A DNA stretch of 28,808 nucleotides, taken from IMG/VR virus record IMGVR_UViG_3300035162_000754, positions 1-28,808 of that record; one strand, given 5' to 3'. This DNA comes from a virus. The position numbers and the translations under genes were made by a program. Below, piece by piece: positions 1 to 28,808 of the stretch; position 1 is the first letter of the stretch, and each line of letters begins with the position of its first letter. The notes beneath the pieces are model-generated. The model was not told the origin of the DNA. It saw nothing but the letters and a program-made list of their open reading frames with translations, and did no database searches.

Positions 1-916
1 AGAGTCAATAGCCCAATTAGATGTAGCAATGGAAAATTTAAAAACAGCTACTGGTTCATTTGTAGAAGGTCCAGGTGTTGGTTTTGTAAACTTTTTATCA
101 GATGTAGTTTCAGGTACAGAAATTTCAATAGAAAAACTTGCTGGATTTATTACCGAAGTCAAAAAATTTCCTGATAAATTTCAAGAGGGTTTGGACTCTA
201 TTGGAAAAGAAGCTGGTCCACAAATTGCTACTTTTGATGAATTTGTAGGTCCATTAACAGAAGAAGGCATGAATGAAAAGAAACTAGATTTGCATCAACA
301 ATATCTAGATTCAATTTATGGACTTGAAGAAGAAGCATTAGAAGTTAGATTTAATTTAGGATTAGAATTTTTGGAAAAAGAAGATAGTGTAGAAAATTCT
401 AGATTAACTAAAAGAAAAACTAACCTTAAAGAATATTTTGCAGCAAAAAAAATACTTGAAAATGAAGCACATCAAGAAAAGATAAAAAACAACTTACAAT
501 CTGCTATTCTTCAAGGACAATCAGCTAAACAAGCAGGTATATCAGTAGTTAAAGCAGAAATAGCAGAATCACAAGCAGGATTAATTTCAAGTATTATGAA
601 ATCTGTTCCATTTCCACTTAATCTTGCATTAGCAGCAGGGGCAGGTAGTATGATAGGTAAAGTAACAGATCAATTATTATCATTCCCAACTGGTGGTAGC
701 TTTGTAACAAAAGGTAGAACAACTTTGCCAATAGGTAATGGAGTTACAGTAGGTGATAATGCGAGTGGTATGGAACGAATAGATGTAACACCACTACCAA
801 GTCCTACGAGTAGTGGTAGTAATATAACAATTAACATCAATGCACCAGTAGTTGATGAATATGTAGTAGACAGTATAATCCCTGCTATTAGACGAGCAGA
901 ACAACTTAATTTATAG
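1..916 (+). CDS. Tape measure protein, C-terminal part (gene continues from the right edge)
   Basis: This is the distal part of the tail tape measure protein, which sets tail length and is thought to help DNA cross the envelope. The open frame starts at base 2 (base 1 completes a codon begun at 28807-28808) and runs through nine codons before the first ATG at 29, so ATG 29 is not the true start. Residues after it include a helical, charged coiled-coil-like stretch, then an Ala/Gly-rich hydrophobic segment and a C-terminal sequence around VGDNASGMERIDVTPLPS, which resembles the conserved end of many siphovirus tape measures. Joined to 28141-28808 it makes 527 residues, short for the family. 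The stop at 914-916 is followed by a GTG-start gene. The family call is firm from the N-terminal half and the position after the assembly chaperones. Confidence 0.85.
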   Translation, partial: ESIAQLDVAMENLKTATGSFVEGPGVGFVNFLSDVVSGTEISIEKLAGFITEVKKFPDKFQEGLDSIGKEAGPQIATFDEFVGPLTEEGMNEKKLDLHQQYLDSIYGLEEEALEVRFNLGLEFLEKEDSVENSRLTKRKTNLKEYFAAKKILENEAHQEKIKNNLQSAILQGQSAKQAGISVVKAEIAESQAGLISSIMKSVPFPLNLALAAGAGSMIGKVTDQLLSFPTGGSFVTKGRTTLPIGNGVTVGDNASGMERIDVTPLPSPTSSGSNITININAPVVDEYVVDSIIPAIRRAEQLNL

Positions 917-927
917 GAGATAGAGAA

Positions 928-1197
928 GTGGAAGTCAACAAACAAACTAAACTAACATTAAGTCTTGAAACAATCATAAGTGGAGTAGTAACACTTGGAA
1001 TGATTATCGGTATGTGGTTTACATTACAAGCCGATATTGAAGAAGCAAAGAAGTTACCACCACCATCAGTAAGTAGAACTGAATATGATTTAAAAGACCA
1101 AATGATTAGAGATGCAGTATTAGATACACAGAAAGATGTAGCAGAAATGAAAGATGACATAAAGAGCATTGAAAACTATATCTTAAACAGTAAGTAG
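928..1197 (+). CDS. Small one-helix membrane protein with coiled-coil tail
   Basis: An 89-residue protein with a GTG start, supported by AGGAGA overlapping the tape measure stop codon about 8 bases upstream. Residues about 14-34 form one hydrophobic segment (IISGVVTLGMIIGMWF). A Pro-rich LPPP follows, then a charged helical region to the C-terminus that looks able to form a coiled coil. An N-terminal helix with a periplasmic coiled coil is the topology of inner-membrane spanins, and no spanin is evident beside the holin and endolysin, but many small phage proteins look like this and sequence support is weak. It begins a run of three membrane or exported proteins inside the tail operon. A tail-associated or membrane-anchoring role is equally possible. 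Function unknown. Confidence 0.7.
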   Translation: MEVNKQTKLTLSLETIISGVVTLGMIIGMWFTLQADIEEAKKLPPPSVSRTEYDLKDQMIRDAVLDTQKDVAEMKDDIKSIENYILNSK

Positions 1198-1203
1198 GAA
1201 TGT

Positions 1204-1611
1204 ATGATAAACAAATATATTATGTTACAATGGCTTTGGCTTGGATTAGTTTTATTGCCATCGTTATTGTACTCACAAGATAAGATAGAATCATTACAAC
1301 AAGTTCAGTTGCTTAGTCAAGATGAGTGTGTTGTAGTGCAAGTAAATGCAGATTGGAATATGTCTGCTAATATGGATTTAAGCAAACTAAAGAATTGTGC
1401 TATATTTAATGCAAGTATTGATGATCCTAATTATGGTGCTACAATAGCAGCCGAATGGAAAGTTAAGTCAGTACCAACGATTATTATGTTTGAATATGGT
1501 AAAGAGATTAAAAGATTTGAAGCAGGATTATCATTCAAATTAGATAAAGATACAATATTAAAACAAATCAATAATGAAATTGATGAAATACAACTAAGGA
1601 AGTTTCAATGA
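1204..1611 (+). CDS. Exported thioredoxin-fold protein lacking the CxxC
   Basis: A 135-residue protein with an N-terminal hydrophobic signal-like segment (residues about 6-23, LLPSLLYSQD) predicted to send it to the periplasm. The rest has thioredoxin landmarks: a VVVQVNADW strand, a variable helix, then KSVPTIIMFEYGK with the cis-proline (Pro91) and a final strand and helix. The redox centre is missing: the position of WCGPC reads W51-N-M-S-A55. Only Cys42 and Cys65 remain in the mature part and neither lies in a CxxC. It therefore looks like a binding or chaperone-like thioredoxin fold rather than an oxidoreductase. It overlaps the following exported barrel candidate by 4 bases, which suggests the two are made together. 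Fold assignment is by motif order; the specific role is unknown. Confidence 0.7.
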   Translation: MINKYIMLQWLWLGLVLLPSLLYSQDKIESLQQVQLLSQDECVVVQVNADWNMSANMDLSKLKNCAIFNASIDDPNYGATIAAEWKVKSVPTIIMFEYGKEIKRFEAGLSFKLDKDTILKQINNEIDEIQLRKFQ

Positions 1612-2675
1612 GAAAAATACTATGTAGTTTATTGTTAATAAGTGGGTTGGTAGCACAAGACTTTTTTAAGTTCAGTACCATCTATGGTGCTTATAGTTTT
1701 AGCAGTCCAGTAACTAAGGAACAACAATTCCAAGTTACAGGTGGACAATTACAAGAAATATTAGATGAAAGAGATAACCATAGTGTTATGACTTTCGGTA
1801 TTAGAAAGTTAGCACGATTTGGATATGAGAATAAGCCAGAAGTTTGGTACACAGGTAAAGAAGCACCAATCAACGAAAGTGTTGCTATTGGTAATATTAC
1901 TGGGTGGGAATATGTAGTAGAATATTCAGACCATAACGAGTTTGAAGAACAATTTACAAATCAAGAATATATGTTACGATACTTAGGTAAGAATTTTTTG
2001 ATAAAAGCAAACTACGATTATCGAGGTTTAGAGGACTTAGAGTTCGCAGGACTAGATATAAGGTACAAAAAGAATTTAGGTAGCTTAGCACTATCATTAG
2101 GGGTCGCAGGAAGAAGCCACCCAACATACTTAGACTTTCTACCAATAGATTTATGGTGGGACGAAAAAGGAATAGATACAACTAACTTTACACCATTTTG
2201 GGATTTTGCTTACTTCTATGGCTATACAGATGAGTTCGTAGAGCAGTTTACACAATTCGGCTATAGCTACTATGATTATAAATGGTATGATGCAGAAGGT
2301 AATCTTGTTGCTAACACAGACGAACAATTTTACAAGCAAGTCTATGGAGTAATTGTAAGGGATTATAATGAACAATGGGCAAAAGATAAAGGCTATCAAA
2401 ACGAACTAAGTTTATCAGTAGGTGCAGACTATTATAAATACAATCCTAAGAATTGGTTTCACTTTTGGGCAACTGCTTATCCTATTACTAAAGGATTGTC
2501 AGACTATTCATTTAATTACGAAGTAGCAAAGAATGGAATGGATTATGATCTAGGATTAGTATATGGTTGGAAGCTAACGAATAAGTTTGGAGTATTTTTA
2601 GAAGGTAGATATTTGAATATGTACGACATTGAAAGCTTTGAATCAAAAATTGGATTAAATATCTTAATATACTAA
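1608..2675 (+). CDS. Exported protein, probable outer-membrane beta-barrel
   Basis: 355 residues. The first 17 or so (MRKILCSLLLISGLVAQ) make a clear signal peptide. The mature protein is rich in Tyr, Trp and Phe in alternating patterns (YMLRYLGKNFLIKANYDYR, LDIRYKKNLGSLALSLGVAG, YDLGLVYGWKLTNKFGVFLEG) and ends in a strand closing with an aromatic residue (LNILIY), which is the usual signature of an outer-membrane barrel. It starts ATGA-style within the end of the thioredoxin-like gene and is followed by a tail-tip gene, so it belongs to the late operon. Phage-coded barrels can change the host surface, for example to block superinfection (Lom-type proteins are a known precedent). Incorporation into the tail tip is the alternative. 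I do not recognise a named family. Confidence 0.65.
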   Translation: MRKILCSLLLISGLVAQDFFKFSTIYGAYSFSSPVTKEQQFQVTGGQLQEILDERDNHSVMTFGIRKLARFGYENKPEVWYTGKEAPINESVAIGNITGWEYVVEYSDHNEFEEQFTNQEYMLRYLGKNFLIKANYDYRGLEDLEFAGLDIRYKKNLGSLALSLGVAGRSHPTYLDFLPIDLWWDEKGIDTTNFTPFWDFAYFYGYTDEFVEQFTQFGYSYYDYKWYDAEGNLVANTDEQFYKQVYGVIVRDYNEQWAKDKGYQNELSLSVGADYYKYNPKNWFHFWATAYPITKGLSDYSFNYEVAKNGMDYDLGLVYGWKLTNKFGVFLEGRYLNMYDIESFESKIGLNILIY

Positions 2676-2684
2676 GGGGAATAA

Positions 2685-5174
2685 ATGTTTATAAACTCTA
2701 ATTATTCAGCAAAACTATCTCCAACCATGACAGAAAATTGGTTGGTACAAATCTTTAAGAATACCAATGCAAGTGTTGCCTATACCGATACACCTGATTT
2801 GCGATTTAGTTTATCAGAAACAGTATATGATGGGGATAACTATTATCCTGCGATCCTTAATAAGCCAAGTGTTAGCTATTCACTTGATTTGAAAGGATTC
2901 ACTACAAAGACAGGAAGTGTAACATTAAATATTGCTAATATAGATTTAGATGGAACAACTTTATTAGAGTTGTTAGGAAATGAATATATTAATGCACAAG
3001 TTAATATCTTATCTCAAATTGACCATGATGGAACTGCTGCGAATGCTTTACAGATATTTAGTGGTAGGGTAAGTAGCTTTGGATATAGAGGAAATACAAT
3101 TGTATTAAGTGTTATATCAAATAGACCATTTCAGAATGTATCTATACCAAATACTAAAACATCAGGTTCAGCTAATGACCAATACAACAATAGATATATT
3201 CCATTAGTATATGGAAAATATGAAGCCAATACTGGATTCACAAATGGAACAGATGTATATGCTTGTCCATTCCTAAAGAATGATGGTAAGAACTTTATCT
3301 ATATGATACCTGAAGGAACAAATAGTGCAGACAAATTAGAATTTTATGATAAAGGTATGAAACGATTTATTGAATTGACTGATACCAATACTACATTATT
3401 AAATGAAGCATTAGATAGTTCTGAAACAGGTGTTGATGTAGATGATGGAACTAAATTTAAAATAAATGATGTTATTAAAATAGATAGTGAACAAATGCTT
3501 ATTACAAGTATTTCAACAAATACACTTACTGTTACAAGGGCTTATAATAGCACGAGTGCAACAACACATTTAGATAATGCAGGAATAACAGTAGTTGTAG
3601 ATAGTGCAGAAACAGTATCTGTGCCAAAGAATATGAAAAGAGTATTTAAAGTATTGCCTGATGATGTTACTTCCACATTAAGCACAGGTTGGTCTTTAAG
3701 TGCAGGAAATTTAGCAGATACATACAATGGAGATACTGATGATGGTGGAACTTTCTCATCAAGTAGTTTTTCAGGTGTAAGTAGAGGTGTAGTATTAAAA
3801 TTAGTTGTGCCACAGGTTACTGGTAAAATTACTGCAATTACTTTAGATATTTCAGGAACTTATTCACAAGTTATGGAAAATGTAGATAATGAAGAAGGTG
3901 CTTTCTTTAATTTGGCAAATGCTTTAAGTAGTGGATTTGGTTCTACTTCAGGGGATGTAAGATTAATAGGAACAGAAAGTATTGGGGATAAAGTAGATAG
4001 AACCAATGTAGCTTTACCAACATCTACAGATATATCAGGAATATTAGAAAATAATGCTTTGCCTGATGAATTATATTTAAGTTTTAAATTTAATGCAGAA
4101 AACGATGGCTCTTATGATAGTGCCAATATTATTCTAAATAATATATATGTAACAGTAACTGCAGAAAACGATTTAGCAAATGAACCGATTGCATCACAAG
4201 AATTTAATGCAGGAATTGATAAGGTATATTTGGGTAGAGATATTGTAGCTGAAGGCTTTACTGCATATTCATCAGTAGCAACATTAACTGACCTAGATAA
4301 TCCAGTAGCGATCCACAGACAATTATTACATAGCATATTAAATGTTGCCGATAGTAATTCAGATGCTAAGATTGAAAATTCAGGATATAAGGCAGTAGCA
4401 GAACTACGAGATAGTACCTTAACAAGCCCAACATCAACCCATTGGAAGACAAGGCTACAACTTGATGAGCCTGAAGCATTGGAAGGGATTATGAACAAAC
4501 TTCAATATGAAGGTTGTTTCTTCTTTGAATTTTCTGCTCAATCTGCACAAACTGCAATTAGTGGGGTTTCACCTTTACGATACTTTACAATTCCTGATAG
4601 TCCAGTAGCAGCTGCAGATTTAAGCCAAATAGATATCAGTCAGTATGAACTTGGAATTACAAATACACAATCACTTGAAACTAATATCGTCGTTAACTAC
4701 AAAAAGCATCCTGCTGAGAATCAATATTTAAAAGAAGCTACCTATGAATTAGAAGATGCAGGTGATTCATCTAGTGCTGGAAATCATGATGTTATTTTTA
4801 ACAATGCTTCACACCAAAAGCAAGAAATGAATTTAGATTTCTTATATGATGCAGTAGATGATGTAGTTGGATCAACAAATTCAAGTTGGATAAACTTCAG
4901 AAAGAGTTTATTTGGGGAATATAAAACAACAGTTAGTGCAACATTAGTTAATCCTGAAAAGTATGGTATGCTACAAGTCGGTGATTTCATAGACTTTGGT
5001 GAAGAAACCTTTGGTGAAATAGGTAGTCCCTTTGATGAAATATCAGATACCTTCGACGATTTCATAGCAATGCCAAGTAGATTATTCAAAGAAGCCTGGT
5101 CGGGAAAAAAGTTCATAATAACAAATTTAAAACGAACCTTAGGTAAGGTTACAATTCAAACGAGGGAAGTATAA
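2685..5174 (+). CDS. Tail-tip / baseplate-like structural protein
   Basis: 829 residues, preceded by AGGGGAAT. The N-terminal ~160 residues are beta-rich, with a PSVSYSLDLKGFTTKTGSVTLNIANI stretch like the strand pattern of phage distal-tail proteins. Residues about 256-305 hold the module KINDVIKIDSEQMLIT...NTLTVTRAYNSTSATTH, a short beta unit seen repeatedly in phage tail-tip and hub proteins. A Ser/Thr-rich middle follows. The last ~200 residues (from about LETNIVVNYKKHP) look like a hub or adhesin domain, with a closing strand KFIITNLKRTLGKVTIQTREV. It lies after the tape measure and the exported cassette and directly before another tail gene joined by TAATG, consistent with a tip complex contacting the host surface. 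General role likely; exact name uncertain. Confidence 0.7.
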   Translation: MFINSNYSAKLSPTMTENWLVQIFKNTNASVAYTDTPDLRFSLSETVYDGDNYYPAILNKPSVSYSLDLKGFTTKTGSVTLNIANIDLDGTTLLELLGNEYINAQVNILSQIDHDGTAANALQIFSGRVSSFGYRGNTIVLSVISNRPFQNVSIPNTKTSGSANDQYNNRYIPLVYGKYEANTGFTNGTDVYACPFLKNDGKNFIYMIPEGTNSADKLEFYDKGMKRFIELTDTNTTLLNEALDSSETGVDVDDGTKFKINDVIKIDSEQMLITSISTNTLTVTRAYNSTSATTHLDNAGITVVVDSAETVSVPKNMKRVFKVLPDDVTSTLSTGWSLSAGNLADTYNGDTDDGGTFSSSSFSGVSRGVVLKLVVPQVTGKITAITLDISGTYSQVMENVDNEEGAFFNLANALSSGFGSTSGDVRLIGTESIGDKVDRTNVALPTSTDISGILENNALPDELYLSFKFNAENDGSYDSANIILNNIYVTVTAENDLANEPIASQEFNAGIDKVYLGRDIVAEGFTAYSSVATLTDLDNPVAIHRQLLHSILNVADSNSDAKIENSGYKAVAELRDSTLTSPTSTHWKTRLQLDEPEALEGIMNKLQYEGCFFFEFSAQSAQTAISGVSPLRYFTIPDSPVAAADLSQIDISQYELGITNTQSLETNIVVNYKKHPAENQYLKEATYELEDAGDSSSAGNHDVIFNNASHQKQEMNLDFLYDAVDDVVGSTNSSWINFRKSLFGEYKTTVSATLVNPEKYGMLQVGDFIDFGEETFGEIGSPFDEISDTFDDFIAMPSRLFKEAWSGKKFIITNLKRTLGKVTIQTREV

Positions 5175-6578: not shown

Positions 6579-6731
6579 ATGTTAATTGAATTTGGAAATA
6601 AAATTTGGAAAGATTTCATGCGAGAGATCATGAATACTTGCTATACCTGTAATACGACTTATGACTTCACAGTATATAACAAGTGCCAACATTGCATGGA
6701 TATTGAACAAGAAAAAAGGAGAATGAAATGA
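6579..6731 (+). CDS. Tiny zinc-ribbon protein
   Basis: A 50-residue frame with two CxxC pairs, C21-Y-T-C24 and C36-Q-H-C39, separated by 11 residues: a compact four-cysteine zinc site. Its stop overlaps the next gene ATGA-style, which supports translation. The start is uncertain. ATG 6579 has no ribosome site, whereas ATG 6618 follows GGAAAG at a good distance and would give a 37-residue protein that keeps all four cysteines. It is the first gene of the early operon, a place for small host-takeover or regulatory proteins, but nothing in the sequence specifies a partner. Confidence 0.5.
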   Translation: MLIEFGNKIWKDFMREIMNTCYTCNTTYDFTVYNKCQHCMDIEQEKRRMK

Positions 6732-10342: not shown

Positions 10343-10945
10343 ATGAAAATATTAGTGGCTTGTGAGTATAGTGGAATTGTAAGAGATGAATTTTTAAAAT
10401 TAGGACACGATGCAATTAGTTGTGATATATTGCCAGGCGAAAGCGAATATTACACAAAAGAAGATAGACATTATCAGGGCGATATTATGGATATTCTTAA
10501 TGATGGTTGGGATATGATGATAGCACACCCACCATGCACTTATTTAAGTGTTGCTGGTATGAGGTGGCTTTATCCAGGTAAAAAACTAAATAAAGAAAGA
10601 TATAAAAAAGGATTAGAAGGAAAGAAATTTTTTATGGATTTATATGAAGCACCTATTGAAAAGATTTGTGTGGAAAATCCAATATCTGCAAAAATATATG
10701 AAATGCCAAAACACACACAAACAGTACAACCTTATGAATATGGACACCCATTTAGTAAAAATACAAGATTGTGGCTAAAGAATTTACCTGAATTGAAGCC
10801 AACAAAAATATTAGAAGAATATGAACCAACATACACAGCTAAATGGTTCAATAGTGGTCCAGGTTTTTCAGGTAATCATGGTAAAATAAGAAGTAGATTT
10901 TGGGAAGGAATTGCAAAAGCTATGGCAGACCAATGGGGAAGATAA
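10343..10945 (+). CDS. DNA cytosine methyltransferase-like protein
   Basis: 200 residues, with AAAAGGAG upstream. It begins MKILVACEYSGIVRDEF, an AdoMet-site motif I in place of the usual FxGxG; AISCDIL gives the acidic residue after strand 2; YQGDI motif III; AHPPCTYLS holds the Pro-Cys catalytic pair (Pro64, Cys65); CVENP (Glu111-Asn112-Pro113) is the ENV-like motif VI. At 200 residues it lacks the large target-recognition domain of ordinary C5 methyltransferases, as in the compact phage-borne versions. It would mark phage DNA against restriction or regulate genes. It sits 3 bases from a putative nuclease gene. A different target base cannot be excluded. Confidence 0.7.
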   Translation: MKILVACEYSGIVRDEFLKLGHDAISCDILPGESEYYTKEDRHYQGDIMDILNDGWDMMIAHPPCTYLSVAGMRWLYPGKKLNKERYKKGLEGKKFFMDLYEAPIEKICVENPISAKIYEMPKHTQTVQPYEYGHPFSKNTRLWLKNLPELKPTKILEEYEPTYTAKWFNSGPGFSGNHGKIRSRFWEGIAKAMADQWGR

Positions 10946-21913: not shown

Positions 21914-22162
21914 ATGAGTGAACAAAGAAAAGTAACAATAGATAAAACAGAATATAATTTTGATGAACTAAAACAAGAACAACAAATTCTTATTGAACAC
22001 ATTGAAAATTGTCGTAAAAACAAAGCACAATTAGCATTTAATCTGGATCGTGAAAATGTAGCAGAAGGTGCATTTGCTAAGATGCTTACTGAATCGTTTG
22101 AAGAAAAAGAAGAAGTGAAAGAAGAAAAAGAAAAGTTTAAAGGAAGTCCAAAAGATGCCTAA
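21914..22162 (+). CDS. Small protein with VTIDKTEYNFDEL start (DUF6447-like)
   Basis: 82 residues. The opening KVTIDKTEYNFDELKQEQQILIEHIENCRKNKAQLAFNLD resembles a family of small phage proteins with 'xTIDGxEYxxDxLSxEAxxxxxxxxxxxxxxxxLQAQxAxxxxAR', which I recall as DUF6447; this is from memory and not verified. The C-terminal third is a Glu/Lys tract (EEKEEVKEEKEKFKG). It overlaps the holin gene by 8 bases. Function unknown. Confidence 0.6.
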   Translation: MSEQRKVTIDKTEYNFDELKQEQQILIEHIENCRKNKAQLAFNLDRENVAEGAFAKMLTESFEEKEEVKEEKEKFKGSPKDA

Positions 22163-22526
22163 ATTAAATATGGTTGCAAATATCATTGACAAAGTAGCTG
22201 GTCATGTAGACAAGTTTACTTTGGACAAAGAGGAAAAAGCACAATTAATACAAGAGATAAACAAGGCACAGATAGAAGTCAACAAGATAGAAGCTGGTCA
22301 AACCAATATATTTGTAAGTGGTTGGCGACCTTTCGTAGGGTGGACTTGTGGAATTGCTTTATGTTATCACTTCGTATTGCAACCATTCTTAATGTTTGTA
22401 CTCTTATCTATTGGGAAACCTATGGACTTACCAGTATTCGATATGAGTACACTAACAACTGTGTTAATGGGAATGCTTGGACTTGGTGGTTTGAGGACTT
22501 ACGAGAAGGTAAAGAAGTCAGCATGA
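22155..22526 (+). CDS. Holin (3-TM, gene-transfer-agent-like)
   Basis: 123 residues. The N-terminal ~50 are amphipathic (DKVAGHVDKFTLDKEEKAQLIQEINKAQIEVNK). Then FVSGWRPFVGWTCGIALCYHFVLQPFL, LMFVLLSIG and STLTTVLMGMLGLGGLRTYEK make two to three membrane helices with the 'W-R-P-x-x-G-W' motif of the holin-of-3TMs family. The endolysin ATG overlaps its stop (ATGA), a typical lysis cassette. It would form the membrane lesion that lets the lysin out at the end of infection. Confidence 0.85.
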   Translation: MPKLNMVANIIDKVAGHVDKFTLDKEEKAQLIQEINKAQIEVNKIEAGQTNIFVSGWRPFVGWTCGIALCYHFVLQPFLMFVLLSIGKPMDLPVFDMSTLTTVLMGMLGLGGLRTYEKVKKSA

Positions 22527-22996
22527 CCTTTGAAGATATTATTAATAATGTCTTAGAGCATGAAGGGGGTTATGTAAATGATCCCCTTGATAAGGGTGGT
22601 GAAACAAACTTTGGTATTGCTAAGCGATGGTATCCTGAAACAGATATTAAAGCATTAACTAAAAATGATGCAGTTAATATTTACTATAACGATTATTGGA
22701 TACCAAGCAAAGCAGATCAACTTCCTAATGGATTGAAAGCTACTTACTTTGATATGTGTGTAAATATGGGACAAACACGAGCAGTTAAGATACTACAAGA
22801 AACTATTAATAGCACACAAAGCACGACAATAGCCCAAGATGGCATTATCGGAAGCATAACTATAAATAGTGCCAGTAAAGTATCTAAGAAGCGATTACAA
22901 GCCTATCGATGTTTGTTCTACTCAAAAATAGTAAACGAAGAACCTTCCCAAAAACGATTCTATTATGGGTGGTTCAAAAGGGCAACAACTACATGA
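22523..22996 (+). CDS. Endolysin, GH108-type muramidase
   Basis: 157 residues from the ATG that overlaps the holin stop. It begins MTFEDIINNVLEHEGGYVNDPLDKGGETNFGI, with the EGGY catalytic Glu14 of glycoside hydrolase 108 lysozymes, and the 'DxGGxTxFGI' match. The C-terminal part SKKRLQAYRCLFYSKI...PSQKRFYYGWFKRA matches the PG-binding-3 module that follows in that family. It has no signal peptide, so it depends on the holin. It cuts peptidoglycan at lysis. Its stop overlaps the metallophosphoesterase start (ATGA). Confidence 0.9.
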   Translation: MTFEDIINNVLEHEGGYVNDPLDKGGETNFGIAKRWYPETDIKALTKNDAVNIYYNDYWIPSKADQLPNGLKATYFDMCVNMGQTRAVKILQETINSTQSTTIAQDGIIGSITINSASKVSKKRLQAYRCLFYSKIVNEEPSQKRFYYGWFKRATTT

Positions 22997-27747: not shown

Positions 27748-28151
27748 TGGCTTTGTCTTGTTATGTGTGGTTTAGTCATTATGGCTATCCACACTTCGAC
27801 AAGCAGTATCCTTATAAAAGGCAAAGTCCAGTAACAAATAGAGTAAGGGCATATAAAGATGAAACAGATGTTCTACATGAAATTGATAGGGTTTATGATC
27901 AATACCAAGATTCTAAATTTTCTATGGGTAGAAACTTATATTTTATATTACCTCTATTTTGTGATCCTAAATGTTTGTATGATGAGTGGATAGGAGAAAC
28001 CATACGAGAATATCGTATGAGCAAGAATTTGAATATCCCCATCGCAAGAAGTTTAGATGAAGCCGATTCATTCATAGTAGATAATTTTTTAATTATAGAT
28101 AACGAATTAAACTCAATCAGGGAATATGAGGTAAGTAAGAATGGCAGTTGA
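27747..28151 (+). CDS. Tail assembly chaperone, downstream frame (gpT-like part)
   Basis: 134 codons in the -1 frame relative to the previous gene. The ATG at 27747 overlaps the stop but has no ribosome site, so this sequence may be made chiefly as the C-terminal part of the 225-residue frameshift product, like lambda gpGT. It reads MALSCYVWFSHYGYPHFDKQ, with FILPLFCDPKCLYDEWIGET and a helical end (IDNELNSIREYEVSKNGS). The C-terminus overlaps the tape measure start by 11 bases. TAATG re-initiation to make the separate protein cannot be excluded. Confidence 0.75.
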   Translation: MALSCYVWFSHYGYPHFDKQYPYKRQSPVTNRVRAYKDETDVLHEIDRVYDQYQDSKFSMGRNLYFILPLFCDPKCLYDEWIGETIREYRMSKNLNIPIARSLDEADSFIVDNFLIIDNELNSIREYEVSKNGS

Positions 28152-28808
28152 TAAGAAGATAAGATTATTAATAAGTGCAGAAGTAAACAAAGCTGTTAAG
28201 GCACTTAACAAGGTTGAAAAATCACAAAAAGATATACAGAAACAGAATAATAAATTAAAATCTAGTTTCAAAGCTATGGGTGGTGCTATTGTTAGTGCTT
28301 TTGCAATTAGAGCAATAGCAAATTTTGCAAAAGAAGCATTAATACTAAAAGGACAAACAGACCAATTAACTAAGGCATTTGGAAATCTTGGTGCATCAGT
28401 TGGCTTTAATAGTAAATCTTTAGATAAGTTTAGAAAAGCAACTAATGGAACAGTATCTGACATTGACTTAATGACACAAGCAAATAATGCTATGTTATTA
28501 GGTATTGTTCAAAGTGATGACCAGTTTGCTGACTTAATTGATAATGCACAACGACTAGCACAGGCAGTTGGAAAAGATGCAATATTTGGTATTGAAAGTT
28601 TAACAACTGGTATTGGTAGGCAGTCTAAACTTATGTTAGATAATTTGGGTATTATTGTAGATACTCAAAAAGCATACGATGTATATGCAGAATCTATAGG
28701 TAAAAGCACAAGTGCATTAGATGACAATGAAAAGAAACAAGCATTTATTCAAGCTACAATGGCATCTGTTAAAGAAAAAGTAGATCAATTAGGTGAAGAA
28801 ACATTGGG
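28141..28808 (+). CDS. Tape measure protein, N-terminal part (runs off the right edge)
   Basis: 222 codons plus two bases are visible. It starts at ATG 28141, inside the end of the chaperone frame. The N-terminus IRLLISAEVNKAVKALNKVEKSQKDIQKQN is a coiled coil. A hydrophobic helix (AMGGAIVSAFAIRAIANFAKEAL) follows, then VSDIDLMTQANNAMLLGIV and GIGRQSKLMLDNLGIIVDTQKAYDVYAESIGKS, the well-conserved block of phage tape measure proteins. The next codon is completed by base 1 of the window and translation continues to 916. Tail length from 527 residues at about 0.15 nm each would be near 80 nm. Confidence 0.9.
   Translation, partial: MAVDKKIRLLISAEVNKAVKALNKVEKSQKDIQKQNNKLKSSFKAMGGAIVSAFAIRAIANFAKEALILKGQTDQLTKAFGNLGASVGFNSKSLDKFRKATNGTVSDIDLMTQANNAMLLGIVQSDDQFADLIDNAQRLAQAVGKDAIFGIESLTTGIGRQSKLMLDNLGIIVDTQKAYDVYAESIGKSTSALDDNEKKQAFIQATMASVKEKVDQLGEETL

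Follow-up and report, generated by a model that had tools for sequence, protein, structure and literature searches.

Why would a phage carry genes for a membrane-anchored helix and two exported proteins between its tape-measure and tail-tip genes? The stretch of DNA analysed here (the window) is an IMG/VR record of 28,808 nucleotides, presented as positions 1 to 28,808. Its open reading frames bear out an earlier note that three consecutive genes lie on the same strand at this place: a helix-protein gene with a GTG start (928-1197, plus strand, 89 aa), a gene for an exported thioredoxin-fold protein (1204-1611, plus strand, 135 aa) and a gene for an exported β-barrel protein (1608-2675, plus strand, 355 aa). 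The note had described them as coupled by a 7-base gap and a 4-base overlap; the overlap of the thioredoxin-fold and barrel genes stands (ATGA), and the spacer between the helix and thioredoxin-fold genes is corrected to 6 bases. Upstream is the C-terminal part of a tape-measure gene (1-916, plus strand; open reading frame and family search), which starts at 28141. Downstream is the gene for an 829-aa tip-like tail protein (2685-5174, plus strand), for which no family match was found and whose tail-tip role is proposed from position only. This one tape-measure gene (28141-28808 plus 1-916) runs in frame across both ends of the record, so that the 28.8-kb genome is probably complete; no end repeat remains in the window, which looks like a circularly permuted or closed genome. 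Family searches placed a holin of the GTA_holin_3TM family (22155-22526) and a GH108 endolysin with a peptidoglycan-binding domain (22523-22996), both on the plus strand, far from the window's cassette. The endolysin gene is followed by a metallophosphoesterase gene (PF00149, 22987-23760) with ~80-90% identity across the phage family. Promoter and terminator scans did no better than shuffles. With the set kept in dozens to hundreds of relatives, the three cassette genes are, by this sequence comparison, real and far beyond chance. The median dN/dS between pairs of the close, type-A relatives was 0.09 for the barrel, 0.13 for the thioredoxin and 0.09 for the helix protein.

The AF2 model of the 1204-1611 product (mean pLDDT 73) matched thioredoxins in Foldseek at E 2e-5. 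Alone, the window protein scores 18.0 against PF00085, below the cutoff of 23.5, and its relatives L051 (27.3 bits) and L256 (26.7 bits) pass this gathering score; on these models and family matches the predicted thioredoxin fold is confirmed. A signal peptide of ~24 residues without a lipobox (...LLYS/Q; 1204-1275, plus strand) was assigned by a simple-rule heuristic and alignment. Alignment of relatives points to a dead active site, with W51-N52-M-S-A55 (1354-1368, plus strand) replacing WCxxC. The first Cys position of CXXC is Asn in 195 of 202 aligned relatives, neither CXXC position holds Cys in these 202, and the cis-Pro is kept in 202/202. CXXC is replaced by Asn-x-x-Asn/Ala in all lineages. 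The invariant cis-Pro together with Asn at the first Cys position suggests that the fold was kept while redox chemistry was lost, and the protein is thus predicted to be redox-dead in every lineage. Such an active site makes a role as adapter or assembly factor likelier than catalysis. Where the earlier note had proposed a thioredoxin-like chaperone, the Foldseek match sustains the thioredoxin part; a chaperone role is unproven.

The barrel protein begins with a putative signal peptide (MRKILCSLLLISGLVA/Q; 1608-1655, plus strand) that ends at a conserved AQ junction; signal peptides and transmembrane (TM) segments were judged by simple rules. The motif GIRKLARFGYENK (residues 64-76; 1797-1835, plus strand) is common to all three barrel types found below, from alignment and the type-C sequence. 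At least 10 strands and a large inserted domain are predicted. The inserted domain, of ~95 residues between predicted strands (2118-2402, plus strand), is the highest-confidence part of the AF2 model, with per-block pLDDT 84-90 near residues 200-240, and is probably surface-exposed, its sidedness being inferred. A C-terminal strand ending in Tyr (2640-2672, plus strand) resembles an OMP β-signal in sequence and in the model. The model as a whole is of low confidence (mean pLDDT 49), and at this confidence it aligned with 70 PDB chains at Z >= 8, the best of which were all outer-membrane barrels, among them OmpG (Z 11.3, 158 residues, rmsd 3.7) and NanC (Z 10.6); these ranked solved folds are not taken as family membership. 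Structure models, which the earlier note had named as a check, lean towards a barrel in their well-aligning matches, at a mean pLDDT of 49. Together with sequence conservation, the model and structure comparison indicate that the 1608-2675 product is likely an outer-membrane barrel. A barrel profile found no match among PDB sequences, none of 31 barrel-family members (0/31) matched any Pfam model at E 0.05, and none of the window's three proteins reached a Pfam, NCBIfam, PHROG or PADLOC cutoff. Foldseek matched the barrel to BFVD entry A0A516LKJ4 (25% identity) and the thioredoxin-fold protein to A0A516MHR8 (43% identity), both listed without name or function; these are probable members of the cassette families by structural match.

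The 89-aa helix protein has an N-terminal TM helix at about residues 9-28 (952-1011, plus strand; hydropathy scan), followed by ~55 residues of charged helix that is coiled-coil-like as judged from sequence alone. Its conserved motif is WFTLQADIxEAK..P.P...RTEYDLKD.MIR, and the positive-inside rule predicts an N-in, C-periplasmic orientation. The helix-protein gene (928-1197, plus strand) adjoins the thioredoxin gene in essentially every complete locus.

Searches of IMG/VR for the barrel returned 49 contigs with close, type-A barrels, at least 150 with type-B barrels and at least 541 matching contigs with type-C barrels; these contigs are environmental, some are near-duplicates and the three lists may overlap. 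A phage contig included in a Bacteroidetes MAG led to type B, and a T4-like contig included in a second genome from that order led to type C. Distinct versions of the cassette occur in several hundred IMG/VR contigs on at least four phage backbones, so that this is no one-off insert; the earlier note, too, had seen no obvious recent insert here. The note had also suggested searching related phages for the three-gene order: the set recurs and its order varies, type A being mostly helix-thioredoxin-barrel, type B mostly barrel-helix-thioredoxin and type C both. In 14 of the 80 type-C loci listed, roughly 2.5-6 kb separate the pair from the barrel. The helix and thioredoxin genes were paired in 70/70 of one barrel-less set, and across the sequences they always appear to travel together, with the barrel accompanying the pair in most contigs. 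One 245,646-base contig of jumbo-phage size (L345 and L347) carries two cassettes ~119 kb apart. Short Lys/Arg-rich proteins with a DUF6321 domain are repeatedly encoded next to the cassette and holin in both type A and type B (L018:7250-7549 and similar).

tblastn against 50,697 GenBank phage records gave no match to barrel types A, B and C, to the thioredoxin (type A and the barrel-less variant) or to the helix protein (types B, C and the barrel-less variant). The annotated neighbours of an M15 relative in cultured Flavobacterium phage MaF61 include no obvious cassette. Among ~790 genomes from the order and phylum of the two Bacteroidota MAGs, sought as a cellular origin, two matched, both via phage contigs; as the barrel was not found in cellular Bacteroidota outside these two phage contigs, there would be no recent host donor. 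On the T4-like contig, the gene before the cassette codes for a protein of 994 aa in which a sorting domain for type 9 secretion was recognised (PF18962, E 3e-13). This protein also has a signal peptide, and its gene (L256:16201-19185, minus strand; G148 contig C32) lies directly upstream of the cassette; it is apparently sent to the surface by the host T9SS. Evidence for Bacteroidota hosts comes from the PF18962 domain, the title of the MAG and signal peptides of the AQ type. The cassette-bearing marine virus contigs are thus probably from Bacteroidota viruses, and we infer a Bacteroidota host for the window's own phage.

Among distinct barrels with enough flanking sequence, 48/88 have a holin or endolysin gene at most 1 kb away, compared with 16/639 control positions (2.5%) in the same contigs. 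Only GTA-type holin, GH108, M15 or amidase genes were counted, with labels from sequence families. A 95-aa two-TM protein considered as a holin had no family support and was left out of the statistics. The endolysins adjacent to the cassette are of three unrelated types (GH108, M15_3, and PG_binding_1 with Amidase_2). Podovirus-like and T4-like contigs have the cassette genes beside a holin or endolysin gene, and in the T4-like contig an amidase gene directly follows the cassette. The remaining 40/88 barrels have no recognised lytic gene within 1 kb. The earlier note had offered superinfection exclusion, receptor change or envelope opening at lysis as functions; this context favours envelope opening at lysis over the other two. 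On balance we think it somewhat probable that the cassette is a phage-specific envelope-spanning module that opens the outer membrane at the last step of lysis, in the manner of a spanin.

The main rival is superinfection exclusion or receptor masking, in which the barrel and its surface domain would block or replace a receptor and the helix and thioredoxin-fold proteins would block the passage of DNA across the periplasm and inner membrane. Classic exclusion factors include outer-membrane barrels made by phages and small membrane proteins (lambda Lom, HK97 gp15), and lambda Lom likewise follows a tail-tip gene, directly after J. The window's cassette adjoins the tape measure and tail tip, the barrel is optional, and its inserted domain is large and probably exposed, all as exclusion would have it. 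Exclusion factors are usually variable, however, whereas the barrel is under purifying selection (dN/dS 0.09) and keeps 75-88% identity between contigs that have very different tail and fibre genes. The strong preference for lysis genes (48/88 versus 16/639) and the lack of any PADLOC match also argue against it. No integrase was noticed in the window on inspection by eye, so exclusion by a lysogen is not obvious. We consider exclusion unlikely overall. Beyond the phage-encoded, predicted outer-membrane barrel, the cassette differs from Ail/Lom proteins in that its barrel shows no sequence match to them, has at least 10 predicted strands and a large inserted domain, and occurs in phages that also carry the helix-thioredoxin pair.

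How the cassette came to lie beside tail genes in the window is addressed by its phage family, which comprises 57 contigs defined by their major tail protein. In nearly all of those that reach the region, helix and thioredoxin genes lie between the tape measure and the tip, and the barrel is missing from most. The pair, and not the distal tail and tail-tip proteins that the earlier note expected there, are the usual tenants of the slot in this family, and the barrel is optional. L242 and L243 are without the pair, and in its place L242 (4058-4279), and probably L243, has a 73-aa coiled-coil ORF with a C-terminal TM segment that is XhlA-like by eye. In many other phages the cassette directly precedes relatives of the window's holin, mostly 70-86% identical to it. 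A tree of the joined proteins shows seven changes between tail and lysis slots, six of them forced by supported branches, and the window's cassette falls in a supported set of seven of which five are lysis-slot copies. Third-position GC of the cassette genes (0.21-0.27) differs from that of the flanking tape-measure (0.10) and tip (0.17) genes, contrary to the similar make-up noted earlier, and resembles that of the window's holin (0.34) and lysozyme (0.25). The slot changes on the tree, the lysis-slot kin and the third-position GC indicate that the tail slot is a secondary home. Rather than being mainly an oddity of the slot between tape measure and tip, the cassette occurs more often as a module of the lysis neighbourhood, and it has moved repeatedly into the tail slot. 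The tail position in this family would also be expected if the products were virion proteins, the helix and thioredoxin-fold proteins being parts of the distal tail whose N-termini resemble signals by accident, and the barrel resembling a tail fibre. This seems very improbable: podovirus-like and T4-like contigs have these genes next to a holin or endolysin gene, the signal peptides have conserved AQ or SQ junctions, and the solved structures that align well with the barrel model are outer-membrane barrels.

Lysis of a diderm host requires opening of the outer membrane. Scanning the window in six frames for a lipobox turned up a single, spurious match inside the ORF at 10343, and no lipobox was found in the thioredoxin-fold or barrel protein. 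Besides the cassette, an export scan of sense-strand genes flagged small TM proteins at 6728 and 13570, an ORF at 22322 that overlaps the holin and lysozyme genes, and an internal start of ORF 8560. With no sense-strand lipobox ORF, the window offers no candidate for an o-spanin or u-spanin, and none of its proteins joins an N-terminal lipobox to a C-terminal TM segment, the mark of a unimolecular spanin. In ~20 type-B contigs a possible lipoprotein with an LSGC box and a Pro-rich tail follows the M15 endolysin (for example L168:10248-10676); from its sequence this protein (cluster 8) could be a conventional o-spanin. On the G148 contig there is a small TM protein with weak likeness to Rz. One published survey detected no spanin in ~13% of phages, Croceibacter and Bacteroides phages included, and considered that an outer-membrane protein could serve as o-spanin (PMC6139136). 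In a later survey, unimolecular spanins were the only type in Bacteroidetes phages (PMC12596118), and no spanin is listed for North Sea flavophages such as Molly and Gundel (PMC8776804). The predicted topology of the cassette and its address fit this missing outer-membrane-opening role.

The helix protein has the build of an i-spanin, one N-terminal TM helix (residues 9-28) and a charged remainder judged helical. With the two-component spanins lambda Rz/Rz1 and T4 PseT.3/PseT.2, the cassette shares an inner-membrane protein with one N-terminal TM segment and a coiled-coil-like periplasmic part, overlapping genes, a lysis-gene neighbourhood (in 48/88 relatives, not in the window) and a predicted span of the periplasm. 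It differs from them in having no lipoprotein, a predicted β-barrel as outer-membrane partner, an additional dead thioredoxin-fold protein and no sequence match. With unimolecular spanins such as T1 gp11 it has the presumed task and the host phylum in common, but it consists of three proteins rather than one and lacks both the lipobox and the C-terminal TM segment. The thioredoxin-fold protein shares with PF00085 the fold, the cis-Pro loop and, in relatives, above-gathering matches, and departs from it in the loss of CXXC, in being exported and in its barrel-linked C-terminal tail.

This tail, IDEIQLRKFQ in the window (1579-1608, plus strand), includes an aromatic residue that occurs only in thioredoxins with a barrel nearby. 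When a barrel lies within 7 kb, 172/173 thioredoxins have the C-terminal aromatic residue (169 Phe and 3 Tyr), compared with 0/17 and 0/61 in two overlapping sets of barrel-less thioredoxins. A search for barrels kept elsewhere by barrel-less relatives found none in 19/20 records, many of them fragments, and the sole match was the barrel-bearing control G020. In L063, a close relative of the window protein, a 44-aa basic ORF replaces the barrel (L063:1-520) and the thioredoxin tail reads LRKLK against LRKFQ, with Leu for Phe; by this comparison L063 appears to be a recent natural loss of the barrel in which the tail Phe was lost too. On the tree there are only 2-3 independent barrel losses and the correlation is therefore not significant (sign test p 0.5), so that the dependence of the aromatic tail on barrel presence is suggestive. 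The tail could also touch the barrel-assembly machinery if the cassette served host-envelope remodelling or nutrient uptake; the barrel would then be an auxiliary porin, the thioredoxin-fold protein would act in its assembly and the helix protein would be the anchor. The nearest barrel folds are indeed small porins and channels (OmpG, NanC). We regard this explanation as improbable, given the late-gene and lysis context, the persistence of the helix and thioredoxin genes without the barrel, and the restriction of barrel matches in the cellular Bacteroidota genomes searched to two phage contigs.

Under envelope opening at lysis, the preferred reading, the helix protein would be anchored in the inner membrane and extend its coiled coil into the periplasm. 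As an adapter, the exported dead thioredoxin would bind it, and the aromatic tail of the thioredoxin would dock on the phage's own barrel or on its insertion machinery. Once the endolysin has stripped the peptidoglycan, the linked complex would draw the two membranes towards each other or make the outer one unstable; barrel-less versions would use a host outer-membrane partner instead. This layout of inner-membrane helix, periplasmic thioredoxin and outer-membrane barrel is the one that the earlier note had imagined, and it is backed by the topology signals, fold searches, pairing and barrel linkage. Counting against a role in lysis, many relatives are without the barrel, and the lysis-gene neighbourhood also attracts unrelated accessory genes; the 40/88 barrels away from recognised lytic genes, the window's own distant cassette, the possible type-B lipoprotein and the Rz-like protein of the G148 contig weigh on the same side. 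The broader claim, that a bridge of helix, dead-thioredoxin adapter and barrel is a new outer-membrane-opening class that replaces lipoprotein spanins in a large share of marine Bacteroidota phages, is put forward tentatively, at a little below an even chance.

The cassette is unnamed in Pfam, PHROGs, NCBIfam and PADLOC. The way in which phages that lack recognisable spanins get through the outer membrane is an acknowledged gap in knowledge, for which the cassette is a concrete and widespread candidate. The module makes sharp predictions, namely helix-thioredoxin pairing, binding of the tail to the barrel and redox inertness, and offers hundreds of natural variants, some of them barrel-less, for testing them. 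Even if its role were exclusion or remodelling, the barrel would represent an apparently virus-only, unnamed family of outer-membrane proteins in several hundred environmental phage contigs.
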